Shown here one piece after another: positions 2,349 through 49,208 of a DNA stretch of 64,000 nt (position 1 is the first letter of the stretch; every line of letters starts with the position of its first letter). The position numbers were made by a program, and so were the translations under genes. Below the pieces are notes generated by a model that made no database searches, was not told where the DNA came from, and saw only the letters and a list, made by a program, of their open reading frames with translations. Source of the DNA: Xenococcaceae cyanobacterium MO_188.B32 (GTDB lineage: Bacteria; Cyanobacteriota; Cyanobacteriia; Cyanobacteriales; Xenococcaceae); NCBI GenBank assembly GCA_030065635.1, contig JASJDJ010000003.1:62001-126000 (forward strand), in the 5' to 3' direction.

Positions 2349-2350
2349 TT

Positions 2351-2416
2351 CAGTCATTAGTTATTAGTCATTAGTCATTAGTCATTAGTCATTAGTCATC
2401 AGTCATTAGTTATCAG
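2351..2416. repeat. STRR heptamer repeat, unit TTAGTCA
   Basis: About nine near-perfect tandem copies of a 7-bp unit (TTAGTCA, with TTAGTTA and TCATCAG variants) begin three bases after the ndhD stop codon and separate it from the cupB-like gene. Heptamer STRRs of this kind are known from cyanobacteria. No coding function is apparent. Confidence 0.85.
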
Positions 2417-2428
2417 ATAAACACTCAT

Positions 2429-2471
2429 AACTCCGAACTCCGAATTCCGAACTCCTAATCCCCAATCCCAA
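2429..2471. repeat. STRR-like repeat, unit ACTCCGA, then CCCCAAT
   Basis: Degenerate tandem copies of a 7-bp unit ACTCCGA/ATTCCGA are followed by TCCCCAA-type units. They fill the leader of the next gene up to its ATG at 2473. The same ACTCCGA family recurs near 4449, 7365, 48412, 57558 and 60340. Confidence 0.75.
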
Positions 2472-9737: not shown

Positions 9738-10157
9738 ATGGCATCTCAACAACAACTAAAAACCTATCTTGCTTATTGGTTTCAGTTAGGAAAGAAAGTA
9801 TTCCTATCCAAAGACGGCAAAGAACTATTACCTCAACCAGTTATTAGAGGCGATCGCTATTCTCAGGAATTTGAAGATTGCTGGCAAAAAATCATTGCTC
9901 ATCAAGGTCAAGATTGTTATCTCGAAGGTACGGAGCAAACTATTGAAGAATTACTCTCTCCTACATGGACGATAACTTCTTGTGCTAGATGTAATATGCC
10001 TGTTCCCATGATAGAGTTAGGTATACAACCTGTAGATTGTCCTTGTAACGATCTTGATGAGTGGCCTAATTCTGAAATACCCCAACCACGCTCTCCTATA
10101 AATACAGTGGTTCATTTAAGTAAAATCCAAAGTCGTTTACAAAGAGATAGAGTTTAA
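9738..10157 (+). CDS. Conserved cyanobacterial protein with Cys motifs, function unknown
   Basis: This 139-residue soluble protein lies 107 bp after ruvB. The N-terminal half is mixed alpha/beta (AYWFQLGKKVFL). The C-terminal part has a cysteine pair in TSCARCNMP and a second pair in VDCPCND, a spacing that could form a small zinc-binding knuckle. It ends in a Pro-rich tail (IPQPRSPIN). I recognise it only as a conserved cyanobacterial hypothetical protein and cannot assign a function. Confidence 0.7.
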   Translation: MASQQQLKTYLAYWFQLGKKVFLSKDGKELLPQPVIRGDRYSQEFEDCWQKIIAHQGQDCYLEGTEQTIEELLSPTWTITSCARCNMPVPMIELGIQPVDCPCNDLDEWPNSEIPQPRSPINTVVHLSKIQSRLQRDRV

Positions 10158-15645: not shown

Positions 15646-17442
15646 TTAATATTTGAGATTTCTATCTTTGTTAGCTACAATATCTAAATTCCATTGTTCA
15701 AAGGCAGCGATCGCAGTAGGCAATGTAGGATAAATATGTTTGGCTTGGCTATTTTTTAGAAATTCTGCCCGTTCTAGTTCGATATACAAATCCTGTTTGA
15801 CTCGCGCCATAGCGAAAGTTATATTTTGGGCTGCTAATTCATCTCTTAATTCAGACAGCATATCGATCGCGGTTATATCGATTTCCACATTGGCTTCCAT
15901 GTTTAACACAAACCATTCAACGGGATTTACTTCAGATTCGATCGCTTCGAGGGCTCGCCGTTTAAAATTTTCTGCATTAGCAAAGCACAAAGGTGCATCA
16001 TAACGATAAATTACCAAGCCAGGGATTGTTTCCGCGCCTGGCCAATCATCGATATCATGAAGTCCTGCTAAATCGGTAACTTTACCTAAGACCGCATCGT
16101 GAGGGCGGGCAACTCTAGAAAATAGCTCAATTACCGATAAGCCAACCGCAATTCCCACTCCTACTAAAATGTCAGTTATTAATACCGCAATAGTGGTTAA
16201 TATAGCTAAAATGAACTCACTAGGGCGAAATCGATACAGTCTAATAAATTCCGAGACTTCGATTAATTTAGTGGCAGCATAGATGACGATCGCCCCTAAA
16301 GCAGCTTTGGGAAATAGTGCCAGTATAGGACGCAAAAATAATAAAACTAAAATCACTGCTATCATTGCTACCAAAGAAAATAGCTGACTTTTGCTGCCGA
16401 CAGAATCCCCAATAACGGTGCGACTGCCACTACTGCTAATCGGAAAACCCTGCATAAATCCATTGCCCACATTAGCCACACCCAATGCCAATAATTCTTG
16501 ATTGGCATCAATTTTATAGTTATTACGATTGGCAAAAACTCTAGCTGACAGCACATTATCGGAATAGCCAACAATAGCAATTCCGACAGCAGAAGCCAGT
16601 AAAGAACTGAAATCTCGAACAGACACTTGGGGAATGACAAAATGAGGTAAACCAGCAGGAATTTCACCAACTACAGCCACACCGCGCTCGTCTAGATTAA
16701 ATAGTGCTACTGCTGCTGTTGAGAGTAAAACTGCAATCAAGGGGATAGGTAAATTGGGAAAACGACGCTGGAAGGCAAACAAAAAGACTAAAACTAAAAT
16801 TGCTAAAATCAGAGTGGGAGAATGAGCCAGTTGCAGCTTGCTGATAAATTCACTAACTTGACCGAAAAAAGCATTGGCATCAATCTCTATTTTGCCAATT
16901 TTACCCAGTTGTCCCCCAATCATAATTAGAGCAATACCAGCCATGTAACCAATTAAAATCGGTTTCGAGAGTAAATCTGCTAAAAACCCCAGTCGGGTAA
17001 AATAGCCAATGATACATATTGCTCCCATTAAAAGTGCCAATAAAGCAGCTAGACTGATATAAGCATCCGTTTTGGCTGCTGCTAAAGGTGCGATCGCCAC
17101 TGCGGTCATCACGGCGGTACTAGATTCAGGACCAATAGAAAGTTGTGGTGACGAGCCAAATACCGCGTAAATAACCATTGGTGGCAAAATTGCCCATAAA
17201 CCAGCAACTGGCTCAACTCCTGCCAATTCACCATAAGCCATACATTGGGGAATTAAATAGGCTGCGACCGTCAAACCTGCTAACACATCTCCCCGCAACC
17301 ATTGCTTACGGTAAGACAACAGTTTTTTCAAACCTGGCATCGGGATTGAAATTAAGTTACGGTTACGAGTTTTGGCTTTGGTCATAGCGAGATCGGCTTT
17401 TTTCTGATCTAATAAAATGTATTGTATTTGACAAAAGTTCAT
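15646..17442 (-). CDS. SulP-family anion transporter with STAS domain
   Basis: This protein is 598 residues, or 579 if the Met at nt 17385 is used. The N-terminal ~430 residues are the SulP membrane domain, opening with the family signature VLAGLTVAAYLIPQCMAYGELAG and containing GNGFMQGFPISSSGSRT. Residues ~460-580 form a STAS domain (ANAENFKRRA, then DITAIDML). Substrates in the family are sulfate, bicarbonate, molybdate or dicarboxylates, and it is clearly different from the BicA at 60.4-62.0 kb. It is divergent from the rogue psbA gene and shares the 283-bp intergenic region that carries regulatory element A, so bicarbonate supply or pH control linked to that D1 is conceivable but unproven. 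Confidence 0.9.
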   Translation of the reverse strand: MNFCQIQYILLDQKKADLAMTKAKTRNRNLISIPMPGLKKLLSYRKQWLRGDVLAGLTVAAYLIPQCMAYGELAGVEPVAGLWAILPPMVIYAVFGSSPQLSIGPESSTAVMTAVAIAPLAAAKTDAYISLAALLALLMGAICIIGYFTRLGFLADLLSKPILIGYMAGIALIMIGGQLGKIGKIEIDANAFFGQVSEFISKLQLAHSPTLILAILVLVFLFAFQRRFPNLPIPLIAVLLSTAAVALFNLDERGVAVVGEIPAGLPHFVIPQVSVRDFSSLLASAVGIAIVGYSDNVLSARVFANRNNYKIDANQELLALGVANVGNGFMQGFPISSSGSRTVIGDSVGSKSQLFSLVAMIAVILVLLFLRPILALFPKAALGAIVIYAATKLIEVSEFIRLYRFRPSEFILAILTTIAVLITDILVGVGIAVGLSVIELFSRVARPHDAVLGKVTDLAGLHDIDDWPGAETIPGLVIYRYDAPLCFANAENFKRRALEAIESEVNPVEWFVLNMEANVEIDITAIDMLSELRDELAAQNITFAMARVKQDLYIELERAEFLKNSQAKHIYPTLPTAIAAFEQWNLDIVANKDRNLKY

Positions 17443-17530
17443 TAATGTTGGTTTATAGACAATTTGATAAAAAAGCGATCGCTTTTGTTAACTCATGATT
17501 TCAATAGCTCCTTTATCCCCAAACCTCATC

Positions 17531-17560
17531 CTTCACAATATCCTCAAAATATTTTTCTAA
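17531..17560 (+). promoter_or_regulatory. Shared 30-nt element, copy A (before the rogue psbA leader)
   Basis: It contains CTTCACAA, then TCCTCA two bases later, then CTAA ten bases later. The spacing is identical in copies B (20561-20590) and C (minus strand, 35609-35638). It lies 60 nt before the short leader ORF and 166 nt before the psbA ATG, in the divergent region shared with the SulP gene. The TCACAA/TCAAAA pair is repeated with an 11-bp period, a pattern typical of OmpR/PhoB-type regulator sites; this reading is an inference. Confidence 0.65.
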
Positions 17561-17619
17561 TTTATAGGAAAAACTCCAAAGCACCCGAAACTAAAAATAT
17601 ACAAACATGGAGGTCAGCT

Positions 17620-17676
17620 ATGACACTTAGTAAATGGCAACCATTCCCAAATTTGTCCGCACAGAATTTTACCTAA
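17620..17676 (+). other. Short leader ORF with strong ribosome-binding site, resembling an Hsp20 start
   Basis: This 18-codon frame (MTLSKWQPFPNLSAQNFT) has a very good TGGAGGT ribosome-binding site 5 nt upstream and ends 49 bp before the psbA start. The opening M-T-L-S-K-W-Q-P-F resembles the N-terminus of bacterial Hsp20 proteins (M-A-L-V-R-W-Q-P-F). It may be the relic of an hsp20 gene whose promoter now serves psbA, or a genuine leader peptide. An in-frame reading upstream exists but looks non-coding. Confidence 0.45.
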
Positions 17677-17725
17677 TTAACCTAACCGTATTCGAGCGAA
17701 ATTAATACGGAGGAGCAATAAAATT

Positions 17726-18808
17726 ATGAATACTTTTGTTCGACGACGTTCTGAACCCAATCTGCTTGAAGTTTGGGAGCAATTTTGTAATTGGATTACC
17801 AGTACCAATAATCGCATCTATATTGGTTGGTTTGGTGTATTAATGATTCCCACGTTCTTAGTAGCAACTATTTGTTTTATCCTAGCTTTAATCGCTGCCC
17901 CTGCCGTGGATGTCGAGGGCATTCGCGCACCAGTTATCGGTTCTTTGTTAGGTGGTAACAATATCATAACTGCTGCCGTCGTGCCTACTTCTGCTGCGAT
18001 CGGACTGCACTTTTACCCTATCTGGGAAGCAGCTTCCTTAGATGAATGGCTTTACAATGGCGGTTGTTATCAATTGATTGTTTTTCACTTTTTAATTGGT
18101 ATATGGTGCTATTTGGGAAGACAATGGGAACTAAGTTATCGTGAAGGTTTGCGCCCTTGGATTGCTGTAGCTTTTTCTGCACCAGTGGCAGCAGCAACAG
18201 CAGTATTGCTGGTTTATCCTATCGGTCAGGGCAGTTTTTCCGAAGGATTACCGTTGGGAATTGCGGGAACTTTTCACTTTATGCTGGCTTTTCAGGCACA
18301 TCACAATATTTTAATGAATCCCTTCCATATGCTGGGAGTAGCTGGGGTCTTTGGTGGTGCTCTCTTGGCTGCTTTACATGGTTCGTTAGTTACTTCAACT
18401 TTAATTCGAGAAACCATTGAAACTGAATCTGTTGACAAAGGTTATAAATTTGGTCAAGAACAGGTTACTTACAATTACATGGCAGGACATTATGGATTCT
18501 TGGGTCGATTACTTATTCCTTGGTTTGCTAGTAGCAACCATAGAGCTTTCCATTTCCTTCTGGTAGCCCTGCCTACAATAGGAATTTGGTGTGCGACAGC
18601 AGGAGTGAGCGCAATGGCATTTAACCTTAATGGCTTTAACTTTAACCAATCGATTTTAGATAGCCAAGGTCGTGTAATTTATAGTGATGCCGATCTGCTT
18701 AATCGAGCTAATTTAGGGATTCAAGCCATGCATTCCCCTAATGCTCATCATTTTCCTTTAACTCTGGCTGGTGGCGAACCAATTACTGTTAATTTGGTTA
18801 GTGGTTAG
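17726..18808 (+). CDS. psbA: Divergent photosystem II D1 protein (rogue/sentinel type)
   Basis: This 360-residue D1 homologue aligns with standard D1 from end to end with a one-residue insertion near D1 position 255. Local numbering is D1+3 before that point and D1+4 after it. Retained: Tyr161 (TyrZ), His190, His198 (P680), His215 and His272 (iron/quinone), His332, His337 and Ala344. Changed: Asp170 to Glu, Glu189 to His, Glu333 to Ser, Asp342 to Thr (Mn4CaO5 ligands or neighbours), Asp61 to Glu, Glu65 to Ala, Asn181 to His, His195 to Asn, and Ser264/Phe265 to Ala/Ser in the QB pocket. The pattern matches the rogue D1 (sentinel D1) class, thought to form PSII unable to evolve oxygen. The Gln-Asp pair linked to chlorophyll f synthase is absent (CYLGRQWE). 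A GGAGGA ribosome-binding site precedes the ATG. Confidence 0.95.
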
Positions 18809-19108: not shown

Positions 19109-19591
19109 GTGGAACTTAAATCGGTATCGATGAATATTCCTGAAGGAGCAAACATCATCATTGGTCAGACCCATTTTATTAAAACTGTAGAAGACCTGTA
19201 TGAAATTATGGTGGGAATATCATCTCAAGTAAAGTTTGGTATTGCTTTCTGCGAAGCTTCGGGGGATTGTCTAATTCGGATAGCGGGCAACGATGCAACT
19301 CTTCAAGAACAGGCGATCGCTAATGCTAAAGCACTTAGCGCAGGACATAGTTTTGTCATCTTGCTTAAGGAAGCCTATCCGATTAACTTCCTCAATGCGA
19401 TCGAGCAGTGTCCAGAAGTCTGTAATATCTATTGTGCGACAGCTAACCCTGTAGAAGCGATTATCGCCGAAACCGAACAGGGAAGAGGTATTCTTGGTGT
19501 TATAGATGGCTATTCTCCTCAAGGAGTAGAAAGCGAAGAAGATATTAAAGCGCGTCAAAACTTACTGCGTCAGATTGGTTACAAACTGTAG
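19109..19591 (+). CDS. Adenosine-specific kinase-like protein (PF04008 family)
   Basis: This 160-residue soluble protein starts at GTG with a GAGGT ribosome-binding site. It matches the small family of which an archaeal member was described as adenosine-specific kinase. The conserved run GIAFCEASGDCLIR (about 44-57), GHSFVILLKEAYP and the nucleotide-site-like RGILGVIDGYSP (about 125-136) are all present. The role is probably binding or phosphorylating adenosine-type ligands; its physiological role in bacteria is little known. It follows the rogue psbA and precedes a universal stress protein, a setting consistent with energy-charge or stress metabolism. Confidence 0.8.
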   Translation: MELKSVSMNIPEGANIIIGQTHFIKTVEDLYEIMVGISSQVKFGIAFCEASGDCLIRIAGNDATLQEQAIANAKALSAGHSFVILLKEAYPINFLNAIEQCPEVCNIYCATANPVEAIIAETEQGRGILGVIDGYSPQGVESEEDIKARQNLLRQIGYKL

Positions 19592-19632: not shown

Positions 19633-20073
19633 TTACTTTTTCATAACAGGTACGATTAAAACTGGACAAGATGCCTTACGGATAATACCTTCACTAACAC
19701 TTCCTAATAAAGCTTTGTATAAGGCACTATGACCATGAGAACCGATTACAATCATCTCTGCGTTAAGTTTTGATGCCTCTTGGAGAATAGTTTCCACTGT
19801 TGACCCTTGAAGAAGTAAAGGAGTAACATTAATTCCACTTTGTTCCAATTCCAAAGCTTTATCTTGAATATATCGATGTTCTTCTCTAAGAGTTTTGGCT
19901 CTCCAATCACGTTTAGATTGCGGACCCGTACCATAACCAACAAAATCAGGCTCGGGAGCAGCAATATGGATTAACCAAAGTTTACTAGAAAAACACCTGG
20001 CTATTTCTGCTGCTTTATCTACAACCGTAGACGTAATATCAGAAAAATCTATTGCTGCCAAAATATTGTCCAC
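19633..20073 (-). CDS. Universal stress protein (UspA family)
   Basis: This protein is about 146 residues long, with GTG at 20073 preferred because GGAG lies 8 nt upstream; a TTG six codons earlier is possible. A single Usp domain is present: NILAAIDFSD at the start, and the ATP-binding G-2x-G-9x-G-(S/T) motif in GSHGHSALYKALLGSVSEG (about 112-130). The motif marks it as the ATP-binding type. The Usp family is induced by starvation, anoxia and other stresses. A second usp lies at 25520. Confidence 0.92.
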   Translation of the reverse strand: MDNILAAIDFSDITSTVVDKAAEIARCFSSKLWLIHIAAPEPDFVGYGTGPQSKRDWRAKTLREEHRYIQDKALELEQSGINVTPLLLQGSTVETILQEASKLNAEMIVIGSHGHSALYKALLGSVSEGIIRKASCPVLIVPVMKK

Positions 20074-20214
20074 AATTAATTCTCCAAACAAGAATTCTAG
20101 CCATTGGCTATAAGTCCCTCGTCTTTAGTTTAACTTTTTGGCTAAAAGCTAATAACTTTTCACTTCTATTTTTATGACAGGTATCACGATCGGCTACGTG
20201 CTGCCAAGAACAAT

Positions 20215-20244
20215 CCTCACAAATTCTTCAAGCTTATTGCTTAT
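20215..20244 (+). promoter_or_regulatory. Shared 30-nt element, copy D (weaker, before DUF4327 gene)
   Basis: CCTCACAA, AT, TCTTCA and, ten bases on, TTAT align without gaps to copies A-C. By my count 14 of the 18 invariant positions match. It lies 37 nt upstream of the DUF4327 start, in the same orientation. It is weaker than the other three, so it may be a lower-affinity site or chance. Confidence 0.4.
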
Positions 20245-20281
20245 CTTAAAACCGAGAGCGAATTATTGAATGAGGTGTGCA

Positions 20282-20503
20282 ATGGTTGCTACAGTTGATT
20301 ATTCTATTGATGAAATTAAAAACGAAGCTCGTCATCTAGTCGAAAGAGGAATTATCGATCGCCATCAGCCAATTTGTATTCTTTGTGAATTTATTCCTCC
20401 AAGAGAATGGATTTGTGTTGAATGCGAATTAGAAAAAAATGACTATCTATTAAGAGATCGTATTTGCGATCTTTTAACAAAAGACGAGTGGCAAGAAGAT
20501 TAA
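20282..20503 (+). CDS. DUF4327 family small protein
   Basis: This 73-residue protein is counted from the ATG at 20282; an in-frame start four codons earlier is possible. The DUF4327 pattern is clear: YSIDEIKNEARHLVERG, the PICILCEFIPPREW block, and VECELEKNDYLLRDRICDLL. Two Cys flank the middle block and one more follows. This is a conserved small cyanobacterial protein of unknown function. It sits between regulatory element D and element B/lon, which suggests expression with the stress-type genes around it. Confidence 0.85.
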   Translation: MVATVDYSIDEIKNEARHLVERGIIDRHQPICILCEFIPPREWICVECELEKNDYLLRDRICDLLTKDEWQED

Positions 20504-20560
20504 AACTGGTGGGGTAGAGAATTGTCGCTCGATTAACCCGTGACCCGCGAGCGATAAAAC

Positions 20561-20590
20561 CTTCACAACATCCTCAAGTTTTTGGTCTAA
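20561..20590 (+). promoter_or_regulatory. Shared 30-nt element, copy B (before lon)
   Basis: CTTCACAA, CA, TCCTCA and, ten bases on, CTAA have spacing identical to copies A and C. It shares 24 of 30 bases with copy C by my count. It lies 82 nt upstream of the lon ATG, pointing at it. A TATATC hexamer ~25 nt downstream could be a -10 box. Confidence 0.65.
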
Positions 20591-20671
20591 TTTTGAGGTG
20601 AGAAAATATATCGTGCAAAATTGCCCAAACAGTACAGAACTGTTGAGACTTGAGTTGCAACAGGAGGTTCT

Positions 20672-23230
20672 ATGGTCGATGTTAGTTCTTTATTTTTTAG
20701 CAAGCAAAACAAACTAGAAACGAGCTTATTGCTTCCTCTTCGCGATGTTGTTTTGTTACCAGGAATTACTCTACCAGTGGTGGCAGGAAAACCACGCTCC
20801 GTAGCTGTAGTAGAGTCTGCCATGCTGACAGAAAATAAACAGCTAATTGTAACGGCAATTCGGTCTCAAGCTCTAGAAAGATTTAAAAAATTAGAAACAG
20901 CACAAGCCGTTCAAGGTGCTAGCGAAACTAAAAAAATCACATTCCCTGAAATTGAAAGTTTTCCAGAAATTTATCCCATAGCAACGCTAGCAGTTATCCA
21001 TAAAATGAGCCGTTTACCTGGCGGTCCAATCCAGCTAATTATTGAAGGTTTAGAACGAGTCGAGATTATCGATCTAGTTGAGACCGATCCTACCTACACT
21101 GTTAAGTTTAAGCGATTGCCACCAGTCAACGAAGAAGAAAGTCTAGCCAAAGGAGCAGACCAAACAACTATCGCAGCCTTAACCCAGGCAATCAAGTCGC
21201 TTTGGACGGAAGTAGCAGCCATAAATCCTCGATTTCCTGAAGAACTATTGGGAGTATTATTAAACAGCCAAGAGCCAGCCCAACTAGCATATCAGACCTC
21301 TGTCTTACTGCAACAAGATGTCACGACTACCCAGAAAATTTTAGAGGAAGAAAATCTAGAAAAATTATTGCGTCAAATTCTGGCAGATTTACAAAAAGAA
21401 ATTGAAGTTCAAAAGCTACAAGGAGAGATTTTAGGAGAGACCAAAAAAGAAATCGACCAACAACAGAAAGAATTCTTTTTACGCCAGCAACTCAAAAAAA
21501 TTCAGGAACAATTAGGGGAAACAGATCCAGAGCAAGCAGAAATCGATGAATTGCGCTCGCGTCTGGCAGCAGCAGATTTACCAGAAGTGGTAGAAAAACA
21601 GGTAAAGAGAGAATTAAACCGTCTAGAGCGAGTCAAGAGTGCTTCGGCAGAAGGAGGTGTAATTCGTACCTATCTGGACTGGCTGTTAGAAATGCCTTGG
21701 AATCAGCAGGTAGAAGATAATCTAGATTTAGATAATGCCAGAACTATCTTAGATGAAGACCACTATGGTTTAGACAAAGTTAAAGAACGGATTATCGAAC
21801 ACCTAGCTACCTTTAAGCTCAAAAAATTAGCCCAACAGCAGTTAGCTTCAGCATCAGACCATCACATTCCTAAATCCTACACCGTCGGTACTGTTATTTG
21901 TTTTGCCGGACCTCCAGGAGTGGGTAAAACCAGTCTAGGACAATCGATCGCCCGTACTTTGGGCAGACCATTCGAGCGCATTAGTTTAGGTGGATTGAGG
22001 GATGAAGCAGAATTGCGCGGTCATCGTCGCACCTATATTGGTGCCATGCCCGGTCGTATTATCCAAGCTTTACATCGAGCGGGAGTAAACAATCCGGTGA
22101 TTATGCTGGATGAATTGGATAAAGTGGGTATGGATTATCGTGGCGATCCAGCTTCAGTTTTATTAGAAATTCTCGACCCGCAGCAAAATCATAGTTTCCG
22201 CGACCTATATTTAGATTTGGATTTTGACCTCTCCCAAGTGCTGTTTATCGGTACTGCTAACGATCTGAGTCGCATTCCCCCACCCCTACTAGACCGTCTG
22301 GAAATTATCGAACTGTCTGGTTATTCCCAACAGGAAAAACTCAAAATTGCTCAAAAATATTTGCTTCCCAGACAAATCAATAAAGCAGGACTGCCAGATG
22401 ATGCCGTGCAGCTTCCCGAATCAACTATCTGTCTGGCGATCGAATATTACACCCACGAAGCGGGGGTAAGAAAATTAGAACAGCAATTAGGAACTCTCTG
22501 CCGTAAGGTTGCCGTTCGTTATGCCGAGGGTGACACTAGTCCTCAGCTAATCCATCCCGAACAGTTAGAAGAATTACTCGGTGCGAGACAATTTCTTAAA
22601 GAAGAAATACGTTCAGAAAGTAAACCTGGTGTCTCTACTGGTCTTGCCTGGACGCTACAGGGTGGAGAAATTTTGTTTATCGAAGCCGTCTTGTTACCTC
22701 AAGGAGAAGACCTCACTCTGACGGGACAATTGGGAGAAGTCATGCAAGAATCGGCTGAAATTGCCCGTTCTTATGTGTGGTCGCAAGCGGAATTCTTGGG
22801 TATTGACTTGAGTGTTTTTAAAGATAATGGTTTGCACATTCACGTTCCTGCTGGAGCAATTCCTAAAGATGGACCCTCGGCTGGAGTAACTATGGTTACG
22901 GCGATCGCCTCTTTGTTAATGGATCGTCCAGTTCGCAACGATACCGCTATGACAGGGGAAGTTAATCTCAGTGGAGAAGTTTTACCTATTGGTGGAGTGC
23001 GAGAAAAAGTCTTAGCTGCTCACCGAGTGGGGATTAAGCGGGTGTTGCTACCCAAACACAATGAAAAAGATGTGGTTGATGTACCAGCAGATGTCCGCCA
23101 GCAAATAGAATTTGTTTTTTGCGATTGCATCAAACAAGTGTTAGCTAATGCGTTAGTAAATCAGCGGGAGGTTGAATTTAATGGTGCCAATAGCAATTTT
23201 GGGGGAACAAAGTTTATGGAAACCAGATGA
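20672..23230 (+). CDS. lon: ATP-dependent protease Lon
   Basis: This 852-residue LonA-type protease has an N-terminal substrate-binding LON domain (LLLPLRDVVLLPG at the start), a coiled-coil helical region (~200-330), an AAA+ domain with Walker A GPPGVGKTS (~412) and Walker B VIMLDELDKV, and a C-terminal protease domain with the Ser-Lys dyad (Ser in PKDGPSAG, ~735; Lys in REKVLAA, ~777). It degrades misfolded and regulatory proteins. An AGGAGG ribosome-binding site precedes the ATG and regulatory element B lies 82 nt upstream. The pentapeptide-repeat gene starts one base after its stop, indicating an operon. Well-studied cyanobacteria such as Synechocystis are reported to lack Lon, so its presence here is notable. 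Confidence 0.96.
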   Translation: MVDVSSLFFSKQNKLETSLLLPLRDVVLLPGITLPVVAGKPRSVAVVESAMLTENKQLIVTAIRSQALERFKKLETAQAVQGASETKKITFPEIESFPEIYPIATLAVIHKMSRLPGGPIQLIIEGLERVEIIDLVETDPTYTVKFKRLPPVNEEESLAKGADQTTIAALTQAIKSLWTEVAAINPRFPEELLGVLLNSQEPAQLAYQTSVLLQQDVTTTQKILEEENLEKLLRQILADLQKEIEVQKLQGEILGETKKEIDQQQKEFFLRQQLKKIQEQLGETDPEQAEIDELRSRLAAADLPEVVEKQVKRELNRLERVKSASAEGGVIRTYLDWLLEMPWNQQVEDNLDLDNARTILDEDHYGLDKVKERIIEHLATFKLKKLAQQQLASASDHHIPKSYTVGTVICFAGPPGVGKTSLGQSIARTLGRPFERISLGGLRDEAELRGHRRTYIGAMPGRIIQALHRAGVNNPVIMLDELDKVGMDYRGDPASVLLEILDPQQNHSFRDLYLDLDFDLSQVLFIGTANDLSRIPPPLLDRLEIIELSGYSQQEKLKIAQKYLLPRQINKAGLPDDAVQLPESTICLAIEYYTHEAGVRKLEQQLGTLCRKVAVRYAEGDTSPQLIHPEQLEELLGARQFLKEEIRSESKPGVSTGLAWTLQGGEILFIEAVLLPQGEDLTLTGQLGEVMQESAEIARSYVWSQAEFLGIDLSVFKDNGLHIHVPAGAIPKDGPSAGVTMVTAIASLLMDRPVRNDTAMTGEVNLSGEVLPIGGVREKVLAAHRVGIKRVLLPKHNEKDVVDVPADVRQQIEFVFCDCIKQVLANALVNQREVEFNGANSNFGGTKFMETR

Positions 23231-23737: not shown

Positions 23738-25306
23738 ATGGAAAGTTATGATTATGTAATTTTAGGTGCTGGATTAGGTGGACTGTCTGCAGCAGCTTGT
23801 TTGACTCGTCAGGGATATCGAGTTGCGGTCTTAGAACAGCACTATTTGCCAGGGGGATGCTGTCATACTTTTGATTATGGTGATTATAGCTTCTGTGCCG
23901 ATGTCCACTATATCTATCAATGTGGTGAAGGGCAAACGGTAAAACAATTTCTTAACTATATCGAGCGCGATGTTCCTTTTAATTCCCTCGATCCAGACTG
24001 TATCGATCGGGTAATTACCCCAGAAGTTGATTTTCGTATCCCTTTAAATTGGGAAAAATTCCGCGCTCGCCTGATTGCCACTTTTCCCGAAGAAACAAAA
24101 GAAATTAATCTTTACTGCGACGAGATCGAGCAATTACATAAAGAAATACAGCAGCTAAATCAAGAGGTGCATTGGTTCGACTTAAATTGGTCGGATTGGC
24201 TATCATTACCTAAATATTGGCATCTATTTACTAGACGTAACTGGACATTACAAGACCTGTACGATCGCATCGGCTTATCCCCTAAACTACAGGCATTATT
24301 AGCCGGTCAAAGTGGCGATTACGGTTTACCACCGTCAGAAATTGCCCTTATTACCCATACCTCTTTGGTTGGAGATTATTCAGACGGTGCCTACTATCCT
24401 CGGCATCACTTTAAACACTTAGTTGATACCGTTGTCTCTGCTATCACCGATGGCGGTGGTATAGTTAAATATTCCACTCCTGTAGAGCACATTGAAGTAG
24501 AAAATAATCGGGTAGTGAGTGTAACCGCAGGAGGAGAAACCTATCAAGCCGATATCACCTATATTAGCGACCTCGACCCTAAATTGACTGTAAAATTAAT
24601 GCATAATTCTTTGGCTTTAAGTCAACAAGAGTATCGTCGTTTAACTAACTATGAATACTCTGCCAGTGCTTTTAATATTTATCTCGGTCTAGACTCTCGG
24701 TTTGACCCCCAATCTTACGGTCTTGGCAATTGGAATATTTGGTATTATCCCAACAGCGATCTCAATCAAGCCTATCAACACCAGCTGGAAGGAAATTTAG
24801 AACATCCTTGGATCTTTTTATCCTCCCCTACCCTAAAATCCAGCGAACCAGGAATGGCACCAGAAGGTCATCATGTTCTAGAAATTACTACCGTTTGTCC
24901 CTACAAACCGTTTCAAGAATTACACGAAACAGATGCTAAAGCCTACAAAGCTCAAAAACGAGCCGTATATCAGCAGGTAATGGCTAGCGTGCGCGATTTA
25001 ATTCCCGATATAGACAAATATATTCGCATGAAAATTTATGGTACGCCTACCACCAGCGAATATTATCTCGGACAACCCCAGGGTAATATGTATGGTGCTA
25101 AATTGATGCCCCAACAAATCGGCTTAAATCGTTTGGGTTACAAAACTGAATTGCCGAATTTGTTCTTAGTTGGTGCTAGTGCTGGCTATCCTAGCGTTCC
25201 AGGCGTAATTAGTAATGGTATGGACGTGGTGGAATTATTGACAGGAAAAGTAATTAGGAGTTCGGAGTTCGGAGTTAGTAGTTCGGAGTTAGTAGCTAGT
25301 AGTTAA
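23738..25306 (+). CDS. FAD-dependent carotenoid isomerase/retinol saturase-like oxidoreductase
   Basis: This protein is about 522 residues long, from the ATG at 23738 with AGGAG upstream. The N-terminal dinucleotide-binding motif is VILGAGLGGLSAAACL followed by GYRVAVLEQHYLPGGC, and the C-terminal FAD block is NLFLVGASAGYPSVPGVI. It belongs to the CrtI/CrtISO/retinol-saturase superfamily, which isomerises or (de)saturates polyenes; the closest match I recognise is the retinol 13,14-reductase-like branch. The substrate is unknown. The last ~15 codons (IRSSEFGVSSSELVASS) are encoded by an STRR repeat that has invaded the 3' end, so the natural C-terminus was probably a little different. It lies 44 bp after the pentapeptide gene and may be co-transcribed. 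Confidence 0.85.
   Translation: MESYDYVILGAGLGGLSAAACLTRQGYRVAVLEQHYLPGGCCHTFDYGDYSFCADVHYIYQCGEGQTVKQFLNYIERDVPFNSLDPDCIDRVITPEVDFRIPLNWEKFRARLIATFPEETKEINLYCDEIEQLHKEIQQLNQEVHWFDLNWSDWLSLPKYWHLFTRRNWTLQDLYDRIGLSPKLQALLAGQSGDYGLPPSEIALITHTSLVGDYSDGAYYPRHHFKHLVDTVVSAITDGGGIVKYSTPVEHIEVENNRVVSVTAGGETYQADITYISDLDPKLTVKLMHNSLALSQQEYRRLTNYEYSASAFNIYLGLDSRFDPQSYGLGNWNIWYYPNSDLNQAYQHQLEGNLEHPWIFLSSPTLKSSEPGMAPEGHHVLEITTVCPYKPFQELHETDAKAYKAQKRAVYQQVMASVRDLIPDIDKYIRMKIYGTPTTSEYYLGQPQGNMYGAKLMPQQIGLNRLGYKTELPNLFLVGASAGYPSVPGVISNGMDVVELLTGKVIRSSEFGVSSSELVASS
25256..25306. repeat. STRR repeat inside the 3' end of the flavoprotein gene
   Basis: Tandem heptamer-like units GGAGTTC, GGAGTTA and GTAGTTA run to the stop codon and encode the last ~16 residues of the protein. 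Related repeats lie between genes elsewhere in the window. Confidence 0.8.
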
Positions 25307-34507: not shown

Positions 34508-35413
34508 TTATCCTCCTAATGGTTGCACTGTACCTTCCAATCGATCGAATCGTTTCTGAATATTCTCTGGCTGTACTGTACCTACCCGAGATAATAATAC
34601 TGCACCAAAGCCAAACAGATTGAGCATTAAAATAATTAATCCTCCAGCAATAGGAATGAGGCTAATTACAATGAGGATAAGCATCCCCACTAAGAAGGGA
34701 ATAAAAGCAGTTTCTCTGTGGGAAAAGATTTTTTTGCCAATCCATAAACCTGTAGCGATGGCACCGAGCAAACCAGCCACAGCAAAGGCTAAATTAACAA
34801 TGGGAATTAGTAAAAAGCCGAATACACTACCTGCAAACAGAGCAATAAACAGCGTAATACTGACAATCCCTCCTAAACCCCACATGGCACTTTTAAATGG
34901 ATGTTGGTGCATAGTTGCAGTAATACTTTGAATATGTCCTGGAAGTAGTAAGAGTAAAAATACACCAAAAGCAAAAACAACGATGAGAGAGATTAAAGAG
35001 AATAAGGCATTGGTTAAATAAAGAGTGCCAAACAATCCAAAGCGATCGAATAGTACTTTGGCATTGCTAAACATAGCTACTTCACTACCATCAACTATTG
35101 CACCTTCTTCTCTAACGATCTGTCCGCCAATAGCTACAGCATCGCCATTAACGCGAGCATTAGGCTTTAAAATTACATCACCGCCAATAGCTACAGCATC
35201 GTTGGTAACTTGCCCCTCGTTGAGAATTGTTACCGAACCACCAATAGCTACGGCATCAGTCAGGACTTGTTGTTCGGGGACTATCACATCAGTACCCATT
35301 CTAAAAATTGTGATATCACTTTCATTGTTGGCAACAGCAACGCCACTTATCACAATTACCAGAAAAGCTCCTAGAAAAACTAAAATTAATCGTTTTATTT
35401 TGTGCCAATTCAT
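34508..35413 (-). CDS. Membrane protein with DAVAIGG repeats (polymer-forming-like)
   Basis: This 301-residue protein has a signal-anchor or signal peptide (~9-28). A periplasmic/luminal block of four repeats with spacing ~20 residues follows (TDAVAIGG, NDAVAIGG, GDAVAIGG and a degenerate fourth), resembling the short beta-helix of bactofilin/polymer-forming proteins. Then come four to five transmembrane helices (~133-275) and a short polar tail. A GGAG ribosome-binding site precedes the ATG. Regulatory element C lies ~196 nt upstream on the same strand. I recognise the repeat type but not a defined function; an envelope scaffold or stress membrane protein is plausible. Confidence 0.8.
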   Translation of the reverse strand: MNWHKIKRLILVFLGAFLVIVISGVAVANNESDITIFRMGTDVIVPEQQVLTDAVAIGGSVTILNEGQVTNDAVAIGGDVILKPNARVNGDAVAIGGQIVREEGAIVDGSEVAMFSNAKVLFDRFGLFGTLYLTNALFSLISLIVVFAFGVFLLLLLPGHIQSITATMHQHPFKSAMWGLGGIVSITLFIALFAGSVFGFLLIPIVNLAFAVAGLLGAIATGLWIGKKIFSHRETAFIPFLVGMLILIVISLIPIAGGLIILMLNLFGFGAVLLSRVGTVQPENIQKRFDRLEGTVQPLGG

Positions 35414-35608
35414 TTTATAATTCTCCTTTAATAACCGCTTTTTTAATCTGCCAAGGGTCTAAGGTTAGTTAAGATATAGGGTCTCCTCCTCACAATTCAT
35501 TAGAAAATAGGGAAATAACGTTTAAAGCGATCGCCCTATTAGAAATAACCCCTTTTTTATCCGTCAGAATAGTTTTGTAGTGTTACTGCTCTGAGTTTAC
35601 TTTGAGGT

Positions 35609-35638
35609 TAGGTCAAAAATCTGAGGAATTTGTGAAGG
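35609..35638 (-). promoter_or_regulatory. Shared 30-nt element, copy C (before the DAVAIGG gene)
   Basis: On the minus strand it reads CTTCACAA, AT, TCCTCA and, ten bases on, CTAA, with spacing identical to copies A and B. It points toward the gene that starts at 35413. A CCTCAAA half-site follows directly. Confidence 0.65.
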
Positions 35639-47372: not shown

Positions 47373-48410
47373 GTGGGCTTTTTTAGTCGTTTTTCCCTAT
47401 CGAGAGATATGGGTATAGATTTGGGAACCGCTAACACTCTGGTATATGTATCGGGGAAAGGAATTGTTTTAGAAGAACCTTCTGTAGTTGCGCTCGATCG
47501 CCAAACAGAAGTTCCCAGGGCAGTAGGCAAAGAGGCAAAATTAATGCTCGGTCGAGCCCCAGAAAATGTTCATGCGGTACGTCCTTTGCGAGATGGTGTT
47601 ATTGCCGATTTTGATGCTACAGAAATTATGCTCAAAGAGTTTATTCGGCGAGTATATGAAGGTAATCCTCTGATTCATCCCCGTATGATAATCGGTATTC
47701 CCAGTGGTGTTACTAAAGTAGAAAGAAGAGCAGTTATGGAGGCAGCCTCTCAAGCAGGAGCAAGAGAAGTAGATTTAATCGAAGAGCCTATTGCTGCTGC
47801 CATTGGAGCAGGATTGCCAGTGGCAGAACCTACAGGAAACATGATTGTCGATATTGGTGGAGGAACAACAGAAGTAGCGGTAGTTAGTTCTCAAGGGAAA
47901 GTAGTGAGTGAGTCAGTACGAGTAGCGGGAGATGAACTAACCGAATCAATTACCCACTATGTTAAAAAAGTACACAATCTGAGTATTGGTGAGAATACCG
48001 CAGAATCTTTAAAAATTAAACTTGGTTCGGCTCACGACCTTGAAAGTGACGATTCTACCGTAGAAGTCAGAGGTTTACACTTACTTTCTGGATTGCCTCG
48101 CACGGTAGTTGTTAAAGTAGAAGAAATTCGCGAAGCTATGGCAGAACCTGTCTCTGTCATTATTGAAGCAGTTAAACGAACTTTAGAACAAACTCCACCA
48201 GATTTAGCAGCAGATATTATCGATCGAGGTATTATGCTGGCAGGAGGTGGAGCCTTATTAAGAGGGTTAGATACTATAATTAGTAAGGAAACTGGTATTG
48301 TGACCCATATTGCGGATGAACCACTAAAATGTGTGGTTTTGGGTACAGGTAGAGTACTAGAAGATAAAGGACTCGATCGCGTCTTTAGCGATCGATCTCA
48401 ATTAATTTAA
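47373..48410 (+). CDS. mreB: Rod-shape determining actin homologue MreB
   Basis: This 345-residue bacterial actin starts at GTG. The phosphate-1 loop is GIDLGTANTLVY (14-25), the second phosphate region is MIVDIGGGTTEVAV (~158-171) and the adenosine motif is MLAGGGALLRGLD. It polymerises under the cytoplasmic membrane and directs lateral wall synthesis. It is the first gene of mreB-mreC-mreD; the three share a direction with gaps of 45 and 73 bp. Presence of the full operon with a class A PBP just downstream suggests a wall-elongation cluster. Confidence 0.96.
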   Translation: MGFFSRFSLSRDMGIDLGTANTLVYVSGKGIVLEEPSVVALDRQTEVPRAVGKEAKLMLGRAPENVHAVRPLRDGVIADFDATEIMLKEFIRRVYEGNPLIHPRMIIGIPSGVTKVERRAVMEAASQAGAREVDLIEEPIAAAIGAGLPVAEPTGNMIVDIGGGTTEVAVVSSQGKVVSESVRVAGDELTESITHYVKKVHNLSIGENTAESLKIKLGSAHDLESDDSTVEVRGLHLLSGLPRTVVVKVEEIREAMAEPVSVIIEAVKRTLEQTPPDLAADIIDRGIMLAGGGALLRGLDTIISKETGIVTHIADEPLKCVVLGTGRVLEDKGLDRVFSDRSQLI

Positions 48411-48411
48411 C

Positions 48412-48451
48412 CCCGAATTCCGAATTCCGAACTCCGAACTCCGAACTCATC
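48412..48451. repeat. STRR repeat ATTCCGA/ACTCCGA in the mreB-mreC gap
   Basis: Five tandem heptamers (ATTCCGA twice, then ACTCCGA three times) fill the 45-bp gap inside the mre operon right up to the mreC start, leaving no conventional ribosome-binding site. Confidence 0.8.
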
Positions 48452-48455
48452 TAAT

Positions 48456-49208
48456 ATGTATCGTTGGTGGGATAAATATGGTTGGAAAACAACCTTAACA
48501 ATATTAGCTTTGTCTGTAGCCTGGTTGCTCAAACAAACCCAAGCAACTGCGATCGCTGAGACTTACTATTTTCTGGTCAGTCCTTTTCAATCTCAACAAC
48601 AACTACTGTTAGAAAATAAATTAACTAATGCGCGCATTCTCCAATTAGAACAGCGTTTAAATGAACTAGAACAACAAAATAAACAATTTAAAGAGCTTTT
48701 GGACTATGCTGCTGCTCAACCCAGATCGGCTATTACAGCACCTATTATTGGGCGTAGTGCTGATATTTGGTGGAATCAAATAACTTTGGGTAAAGGAAGT
48801 AAAGATGGAGTAGCTAAAGGATTTATTGTTAATGGGATTGGTGGTGTAATTGGTCGCATTATTCAAGTTACTCCCCATACTAGTCGTGCTTTATTAATTA
48901 GCGATCCTCATAGTAGAGTTGGTGCCGTAGTTACTCGTACTCGCCATCCGGGTTTTATTCAAGGAAAAAATTCTCAAACCGCAGTTATGCATTTTTTTAC
49001 TCAAGTAGTCGATGTTCGTGCTGGAGATACAATTACTACTTCTTCTCTGAGTTATCTATATCCCGCTGGTTTACCTATCGGTCAAGTTAAGTCAGTTAAC
49101 TTTGAGAAAGGACCAGCACCAGAAGCGGAAATTGAGTTAAATGTTCCTATCGATTTGTTGGAATGGGTAGTAATTCAACCCTTTAGTCCCAAAGTAGAAA
49201 TTAAATAA
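48456..49208 (+). CDS. mreC: Rod-shape determining protein MreC
   Basis: This 250-residue protein has one N-terminal membrane anchor (~13-30) and a coiled coil (~45-75, QQLLLENKLTNARILQLEQR). A periplasmic beta-barrel pair typical of MreC follows (APIIGRSADIWWNQITLGKG; GVVTRTRHPGF-like segment; PAGLPIGQVKSV). It bridges MreB/MreD to PBPs during elongation. The gene lies between mreB and mreD. Confidence 0.93.
   Translation: MYRWWDKYGWKTTLTILALSVAWLLKQTQATAIAETYYFLVSPFQSQQQLLLENKLTNARILQLEQRLNELEQQNKQFKELLDYAAAQPRSAITAPIIGRSADIWWNQITLGKGSKDGVAKGFIVNGIGGVIGRIIQVTPHTSRALLISDPHSRVGAVVTRTRHPGFIQGKNSQTAVMHFFTQVVDVRAGDTITTSSLSYLYPAGLPIGQVKSVNFEKGPAPEAEIELNVPIDLLEWVVIQPFSPKVEIK

Follow-up and report, generated by a model that had tools for sequence, protein, structure and literature searches.

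The 18-codon open reading frame that precedes a rogue psbA gene in the window, the whole 64,000-nucleotide stretch of DNA analysed here, is very probably the 5' stump of an hsp20 gene whose body was deleted from an ancestral unit of element A, hsp20 and rogue psbA. It is read as the stump of the first gene of that unit because it matches an hsp20 gene on contig C180 of the same genome, because relatives carry intact units, and because the hsp20 of a further relative (G014) has undergone an internal loss.

The short frame and its likeness to hsp20

The genome of the window (G000, 281 contigs) has six Hsp20 matches, one of which (L002, G000:C180:31536-32003) begins MTLSKWQPFQELNNIRKQ (also given as MTLSKWQPFQELNNIRKQMDSLFEDML) and contains an alpha-crystallin domain (PF00011, E 1.3e-20). 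The original prediction had likened the first nine residues of the window frame to an Hsp20 start, and this likeness proved specific: the C180 hsp20 leader aligns with the window over 117 columns with a score of 152, whereas the best of 200 single-base intergenic shuffles reached 30. Within this alignment, the 36 columns of the element hold 1 mismatch, the 41 columns of the 5'UTR hold 9 mismatches plus 6 gaps, and the 40 columns of the ribosome site and the nine codons show 0 changes. Past codon 9 the sequences diverge; C180 continues as a full hsp20, and the window frame runs for nine more codons before its stop. Codons 10-18 gave no match to the C180 hsp20 and were not found in any relative, and no source was recognised for positions 17648-17678, with the recognisable old spacer starting at about 17679.

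With 18 codons, nine of them Hsp20-like, the window frame has no alpha-crystallin domain (PF00011) by which it could be counted as an Hsp20 protein. Its leader and N-terminal codons share common descent with an hsp20 gene, and the frame is an Hsp20 remnant, not a member of the family. The predicted GGAGG site and the predicted position behind element A were both found (Table 1). A link between the element and hsp20, which had also been anticipated, is present in this genome, where the C180 hsp20 has the element, and in relatives. The other outcome that would have spoken against the prediction, the peptide standing before unrelated genes, was not seen either: among the eight psbA leaders of the orthologous group, the two stumps (window and G014) precede the same psbA.

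Table 1. Features of the psbA locus and sites of element A in the window
Feature	Position	Strand	Evidence or remarks
Stretch homologous to C180 hsp20 leader and codons 1-9	17531-17647	+	score 152, shuffle maximum 30
Element A, TTCACAA-N2-TCCTCAA then TAnnnT box (17558-17563)	17530-17567	+	model R1 E 1.8e-7 (training site); also before hsp20 in relatives
GGAGG ribosome site of stump	17609-17613	+	sequence; kept in most of the compared leaders
18-codon frame and TAA (MTLSKWQPFPNLSAQNFT)	17620-17676	+	codons 1-9 (MTLSKWQPF) as hsp20 start; codons 10-18 not
Remaining hsp20-psbA spacer	17679-17714	+	matches G014 (score 52), G026 (56), G007 (40), weakly G003 (30)
GGAGGAG, psbA's own ribosome site	17709-17715	+	sequence
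Rogue psbA (D1 with changed Mn-ligand positions)	17726-18808	+	PF00124; tree; residues
Adenosine-specific kinase family gene, conserved downstream neighbour	19109-19591	+	PF04008
Element A before DUF4327 gene 20270-20503, 421 nt before lon	20215-20251	+	E 8.2e-4, non-training site
Element A before lon (20672-23230)	20560-20597	+	E 4.9e-8, training site; Lon_C E 7.7e-82
Element A before gene 34508-35413 (-), which has no Pfam match	35601-35638	-	E 6.9e-7, training site

The rogue psbA and the orthologous locus in relatives

In a D1 tree, the psbA of the window falls into a clade of 34 rows apart from 12 standard rows (SH-aLRT 100, in a quick tree with some long branches), and the three standard D1s of the genome group with the nine other standard rows (same tree, SH-aLRT only). 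The window D1 has E170, H189, S333 and T342, where the three standard D1s have D, E, E and D; Mn-cluster ligand residues are thus lost at these positions, and H332, H337 and A344 are retained, on the D1 numbering and list of Mn ligands used here. A second kind of rogue psbA with a shortened C-terminus was observed in the family (L045, L046, L047 and L064, from G010, G011, G001 and G018, respectively). Its residues 170, 189, 333 and 342 are altered, as examined in L045 and L064, and L064 (by eye also L045) has a Rieske-domain gene immediately upstream.

The family sample comprised 27 genomes including that of the window, some of them incomplete. Among the matches listed, the psbA of the window was found at an identity of at least 84% in eight of the 27, again including its own genome. 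The original prediction had proposed to look for intact hsp20 upstream of orthologous rogue psbA genes, and among the matches listed it was found in five of the seven relatives (G003, G005, G018, G026 and G007, the last from the window's genus), on the same strand and 90-101 nt upstream. These five hsp20 genes are of the same subfamily, and their products are 79-86% identical to the C180 protein. In G014 a remnant was found that keeps both ends of hsp20 and lacks the middle; the start scores 56 (shuffle maximum 27) and the tail 44 (shuffle maximum 25). This deletion is independent of that in the window and is a parallel case. In the seventh relative, G008, element A precedes psbA by 141-177 nt on the same strand (L135), and no hsp20 remnant could be demonstrated there (alignment 18-19, shuffles 25-26). 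A decayed hsp20 tail read by eye before this psbA (L044) was dropped on the same scores.

The spacer that remains in the window matches that of four relatives (Table 1), and its alignments to G005, G018 and G008 did not exceed shuffles (22-26). The adenosine-kinase gene adjoins psbA in the fetched stretches of four of the seven relatives. On the far side of the element, upstream, the relatives show no conservation of genes, which means that the locus has shifted at its left border. Taken together, the intact hsp20 genes in relatives, the G014 remnant, the common spacer and the kinase neighbour identify the locus as orthologous and the window frame as the stump of its first gene.

In a phylum sample, psbA was found at E<=1e-185 in seven of 386 genomes, the window's own included, and no hsp20 was seen by eye among the listed open reading frames around the other six. 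Hsp20 of this subfamily at E<=1e-50 was found in ten of 388 genomes of the order, nine of them from the window's family. A tblastn search of 80 named psbA loci placed hsp20 directly before psbA only in L134; in L138 an hsp20 lies about 2.3 kb downstream of psbA, and L135 has a weaker hsp20 on the opposite strand.

A probable deletion in place and its alternatives

The ancestor of the group would have carried element A, hsp20 and rogue psbA in one direction, with hsp20 and psbA presumably co-transcribed. In the lineage of the window, the hsp20 body would then have been lost in place by a deletion that began at codon 10 and ended within the hsp20-psbA spacer, so that the promoter, the leader, the ribosome site and nine codons stayed behind. 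The rogue psbA would now be the first real gene behind a promoter that earlier reached it through hsp20; a full hsp20 with the same element persists on C180. In the simplest order of events, the element-hsp20 unit would have been copied to C180 before the psbA-linked body was deleted. The stump may be young.

It had been predicted that an element-hsp20 unit lost its body and gave its promoter to psbA. The first part stands, since such a unit stood at this place in relatives and the body is gone, but the capture of a foreign promoter probably does not. Very likely psbA was already the second gene behind this promoter before the deletion, which brought it nearer. The term promoter capture is therefore probably wrong, also because six rogue psbA genes of Nostoc-type genomes have the element with no hsp20 in between.

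The comparison of leaders counts to some extent against a deletion in place, as do the shifted left border, the stretch 17648-17678 with no recognised source and the lack of a demonstrable remnant in G008. The window leader is closest to that of C180 (89%), whereas nine other leaders reach 60-82%, with 79% for the relative of the same genus, and this greater closeness is also what a copy taken from C180 would give. The original hsp20 and its promoter could have been lost, and the C180 leader with nine codons later copied before psbA, a course of events with which the lack of conservation upstream of the element would agree. Such a secondary capture is unlikely: it requires two events, against one for a deletion; a deletion in place is seen in G014; and the closeness of the leaders is explained equally well if the entire unit was duplicated to C180 before the deletion occurred. 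Moreover, the 5'UTRs differ to the extent given above, so any copy was not recent. DNA trees of hsp20 and psbA were too poorly resolved to give the order of events. The C180 hsp20 is nearest to that of G003 (86.7% nucleotide identity; 81.7% to G007, of the same genus), and the window psbA is nearest to that of G007 (87.5% nucleotide identity). The C180 copy may stem from a duplication within the lineage or from an acquisition from a relative.

Another suggestion of the original prediction, that the peptide is a translated leader controlling psbA, found no support. A minicistron kept by selection, whose translation or stalling controls psbA, would fit the strong GGAGG, the constancy of the ribosome site and codons 1-9 next to a changed 5'UTR, and the short frame that G014 likewise keeps at the same place. 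The constancy is no proof of selection, however: coding constrains the C180 side, and the same picture would result if the deletion was recent. Five relatives carry a full hsp20 at this position, and psbA has a ribosome site of its own, with the stop codon of the stump 49 nt upstream of the psbA ATG. Further, the frames of the two stumps differ after codon 9-10, codons 10-18 recur in no relative, and no Rfam match at E<=1 was found within 17400-17800. Control by a leader peptide is accordingly improbable, and the stump would be a relic rather than a regulatory peptide.

An inverted repeat, CCGTATT/AATACGG (17686-17710), was observed directly before the psbA ribosome site and also in G026, G007 and G014. 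Five spacers were aligned around this region. The corresponding stem-loop appeared in single folds of G000, G026 and G007 and was absent in G003, G005 and G018; a role of the repeat in translation control is possible.

An assembly artefact, or a resemblance to an Hsp20 start by chance, could be suspected from a frame of just 18 codons and from about 40 identical bases common to two loci in an assembly of 281 contigs. Either is very improbable in view of the alignment score, which no shuffle approached, and of the independent parallel in G014; in addition, if the flanks had been exchanged at these common bases, the upstream side only would be altered, and one leader would still enter psbA without an hsp20 body. 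The locus would be a clear natural case in which the first gene of an operon was deleted and its promoter serves the second gene, with an independent parallel in G014.

Element A and the genes behind it

A search of the genome with a pattern for the first 18 positions of element A gave 48 matches, 30 of them with loci, against 35 for a control with the reversed pattern. Positions 29-30, which the pattern did not cover, read TA in every one of the 14 matches that had two mismatches or fewer. Of the 30 sites, 17 went into a 39-position model, and L014, L021, L022, L024-L030, L033, L034 and L036 were left out on inspection. With E<=1 the model found 53 sites; 30 of them reach E<=0.0012, and 13 of these 30 had no part in its training (four of the 13 had been pattern matches). 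Outside any open reading frame of at least 80 aa lie 27 of the 30 sites. Element A thus stands before many genes, mostly in non-coding DNA, and is kept in relatives, and it would be a regulated promoter.

Pfam matches of the genes behind the element include PFOR domains, HypC, a HoxU-like iron-sulfur protein, a dihydroorotate-dehydrogenase-type protein followed by phosphofructokinase, Usp, two CBS proteins, FtsH, Lon, DJ-1 and a second Hsp20. ATP synthase subunits of alpha/beta, gamma and a type are also found, together with phosphoribosyltransferase, PEBP, DUF4327, DUF2949, pentapeptide, HlyD-type, hydrolase and TPR proteins. At L113 a DUF4327 paralogue stands between the site and HypC, and L110, L112, L118, L120, L123, L128 and L129 gave no Pfam match. 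Among the matches listed, none of the 53 sites lies at the three standard psbA genes of the genome.

Two features of these loci were observed in passing. Two DUF4327 paralogues (window 20270-20503 and G000:C180:22314-22535), 79% identical, each stand just behind an element A. The PFOR gene behind one site (L221, G000:C180:19226-20535) is broken up, and between its short pieces lies a TnpB/Cas12f1-like TNB-domain frame (19798-20154).

In the family, element A was present at E<=1e-4 in 26 of the 27 genomes among the matches listed. The median number of sites, likewise among the matches listed, was 13.5 in the eight genomes with this rogue psbA versus 5 in the other 19 (Mann-Whitney p 0.002, uncorrected for kinship and genome size). 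The element is not universal, because only 19 of 117 genomes of a phylum sample have a site at E<=0.001, under stricter filters by which weak matches are lost.

Of the 80 named psbA loci, the tree assigns 18 as rogue; 16 of these were themselves placed in it, and L134 and L135 are represented by G018 and G008. Nine of the other 62 were in the tree, all as standard D1, and the rest were judged by 68-73% identity. In 8 of the 18 rogue loci and in 0 of the 62 others, the element was found upstream of psbA, on its strand and no more than 700 nt away (Fisher p 1.5e-6, uncorrected for kinship), so it accompanies rogue psbA beyond the group with hsp20. Six of the eight belong to Nostoc-type genomes of one clade. 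In the remaining ten rogue loci no element was found within this distance on the same strand. The scan of the named loci also gave three weak partial matches (E 0.085-0.13) at more than 1300 nt upstream of psbA, and weak ones in L150.

Gene neighbourhoods agree with this association. The rogue psbA of G199 (L097) is followed by two frames with a 2Fe-2S thioredoxin-like domain, presumably HoxE- and HoxF-like. In Atlanticothrix silvestris (L136) the genes in the vicinity of the rogue psbA include those for a NiFe-hydrogenase large subunit and for a CBS-CP12 protein, and in G017 the hsp20 ortholog lies between HoxU/HoxY-like genes and hypF.

The TTCACAA-N2-TCCTCAA part sits at about the position of a -35 box relative to TAnnnT, which would fit either an alternative sigma factor or an activator whose site overlaps -35. 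Rre1 was ruled out as the reader of element A, as its proposed motif GTNCGGK is not near the leader: no match was found between 14303 and 19471. In the window as a whole, coding and intergenic DNA together, GTNCGGK occurs at 39 places against a shuffle mean of 21 (0 of 100 shuffles had as many), none of them near the psbA leader. Short tandem repeats with 14-base spacing are also scattered in the window (2350-2465, 25251-25305, 48408-48459 and others). A place to look for a regulator of element A is L258 (G000:C111:6374-9806), where by eye a large frame with a CBS-like start, followed by a response-regulator-like frame, is oriented divergently from a site at 9806.

Judged from the DNA and its predicted products, the genes behind element A look like an uncharacterised regulon for the dark or low oxygen plus proteostasis; their make-up suggests low-oxygen or dark metabolism together with protein quality control. 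The wider reading has about an even chance of being right: some cyanobacteria would possess a low-oxygen/dark regulon that combines rogue D1, hydrogenase-type, PFOR, ATP-synthase-type, Usp and CBS proteins with Hsp20, Lon and FtsH, to which rogue psbA would have belonged for long, and in more than a single lineage; pairing with hsp20, repeatedly lost, would be one way in which the distance between psbA and its promoter was reshaped. A promoter element shared with hydrogenase-type, PFOR and proteostasis genes makes the signal and the regulator of rogue D1 testable. If the regulon reading is true, it would explain the timing of rogue D1 production and provide a lead to the factor responsible for it.

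In the available parts of the literature on cyanobacterial motifs, anaerobic or low-oxygen conditions, hox and psbA, no description of a motif of the form of element A was found, and neither the hsp20-rogue psbA unit nor element A was found described in the accessible portions of the literature searched, a body with most subscription journals outside its scope. The DosR dormancy regulon of mycobacteria responds to low oxygen and includes Hsp20-type, Usp and CBS proteins and phosphofructokinase. The element A set is like it in content only; DosR belongs to a different phylum and has a palindromic motif. In Synechococcus elongatus, the Hik2/Hik34-Rre1 system, which responds to heat and redox state, joins stress signals to chaperone genes, according to the available part of the source (PMC13421787); the link between stress and chaperones is shared, whereas element A is another motif than GTNCGGK. 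Hox hydrogenase in cyanobacteria is controlled by LexA and AbrB-like proteins, as described in the accessible text of PMC4463661, and their targets overlap with those of element A, which also stands before hydrogenase-type genes; the likeness is one of targets. The nearest counterpart of the rogue psbA itself is psbA4 of Cyanothece ATCC 51142 (rogue or sentinel D1, "group 2" psbA), which shares the non-standard D1 clade and the changed Mn-ligand positions. In the part of the report available, expression of psbA4 is found mainly in darkness, and deleting the gene had mild effects (PMC9640542). The papers on rogue D1, as far as their available text goes, describe no hsp20 before the gene and no shared promoter element, whereas both are seen at the locus described here, as far as its sequence and that of its relatives can tell.
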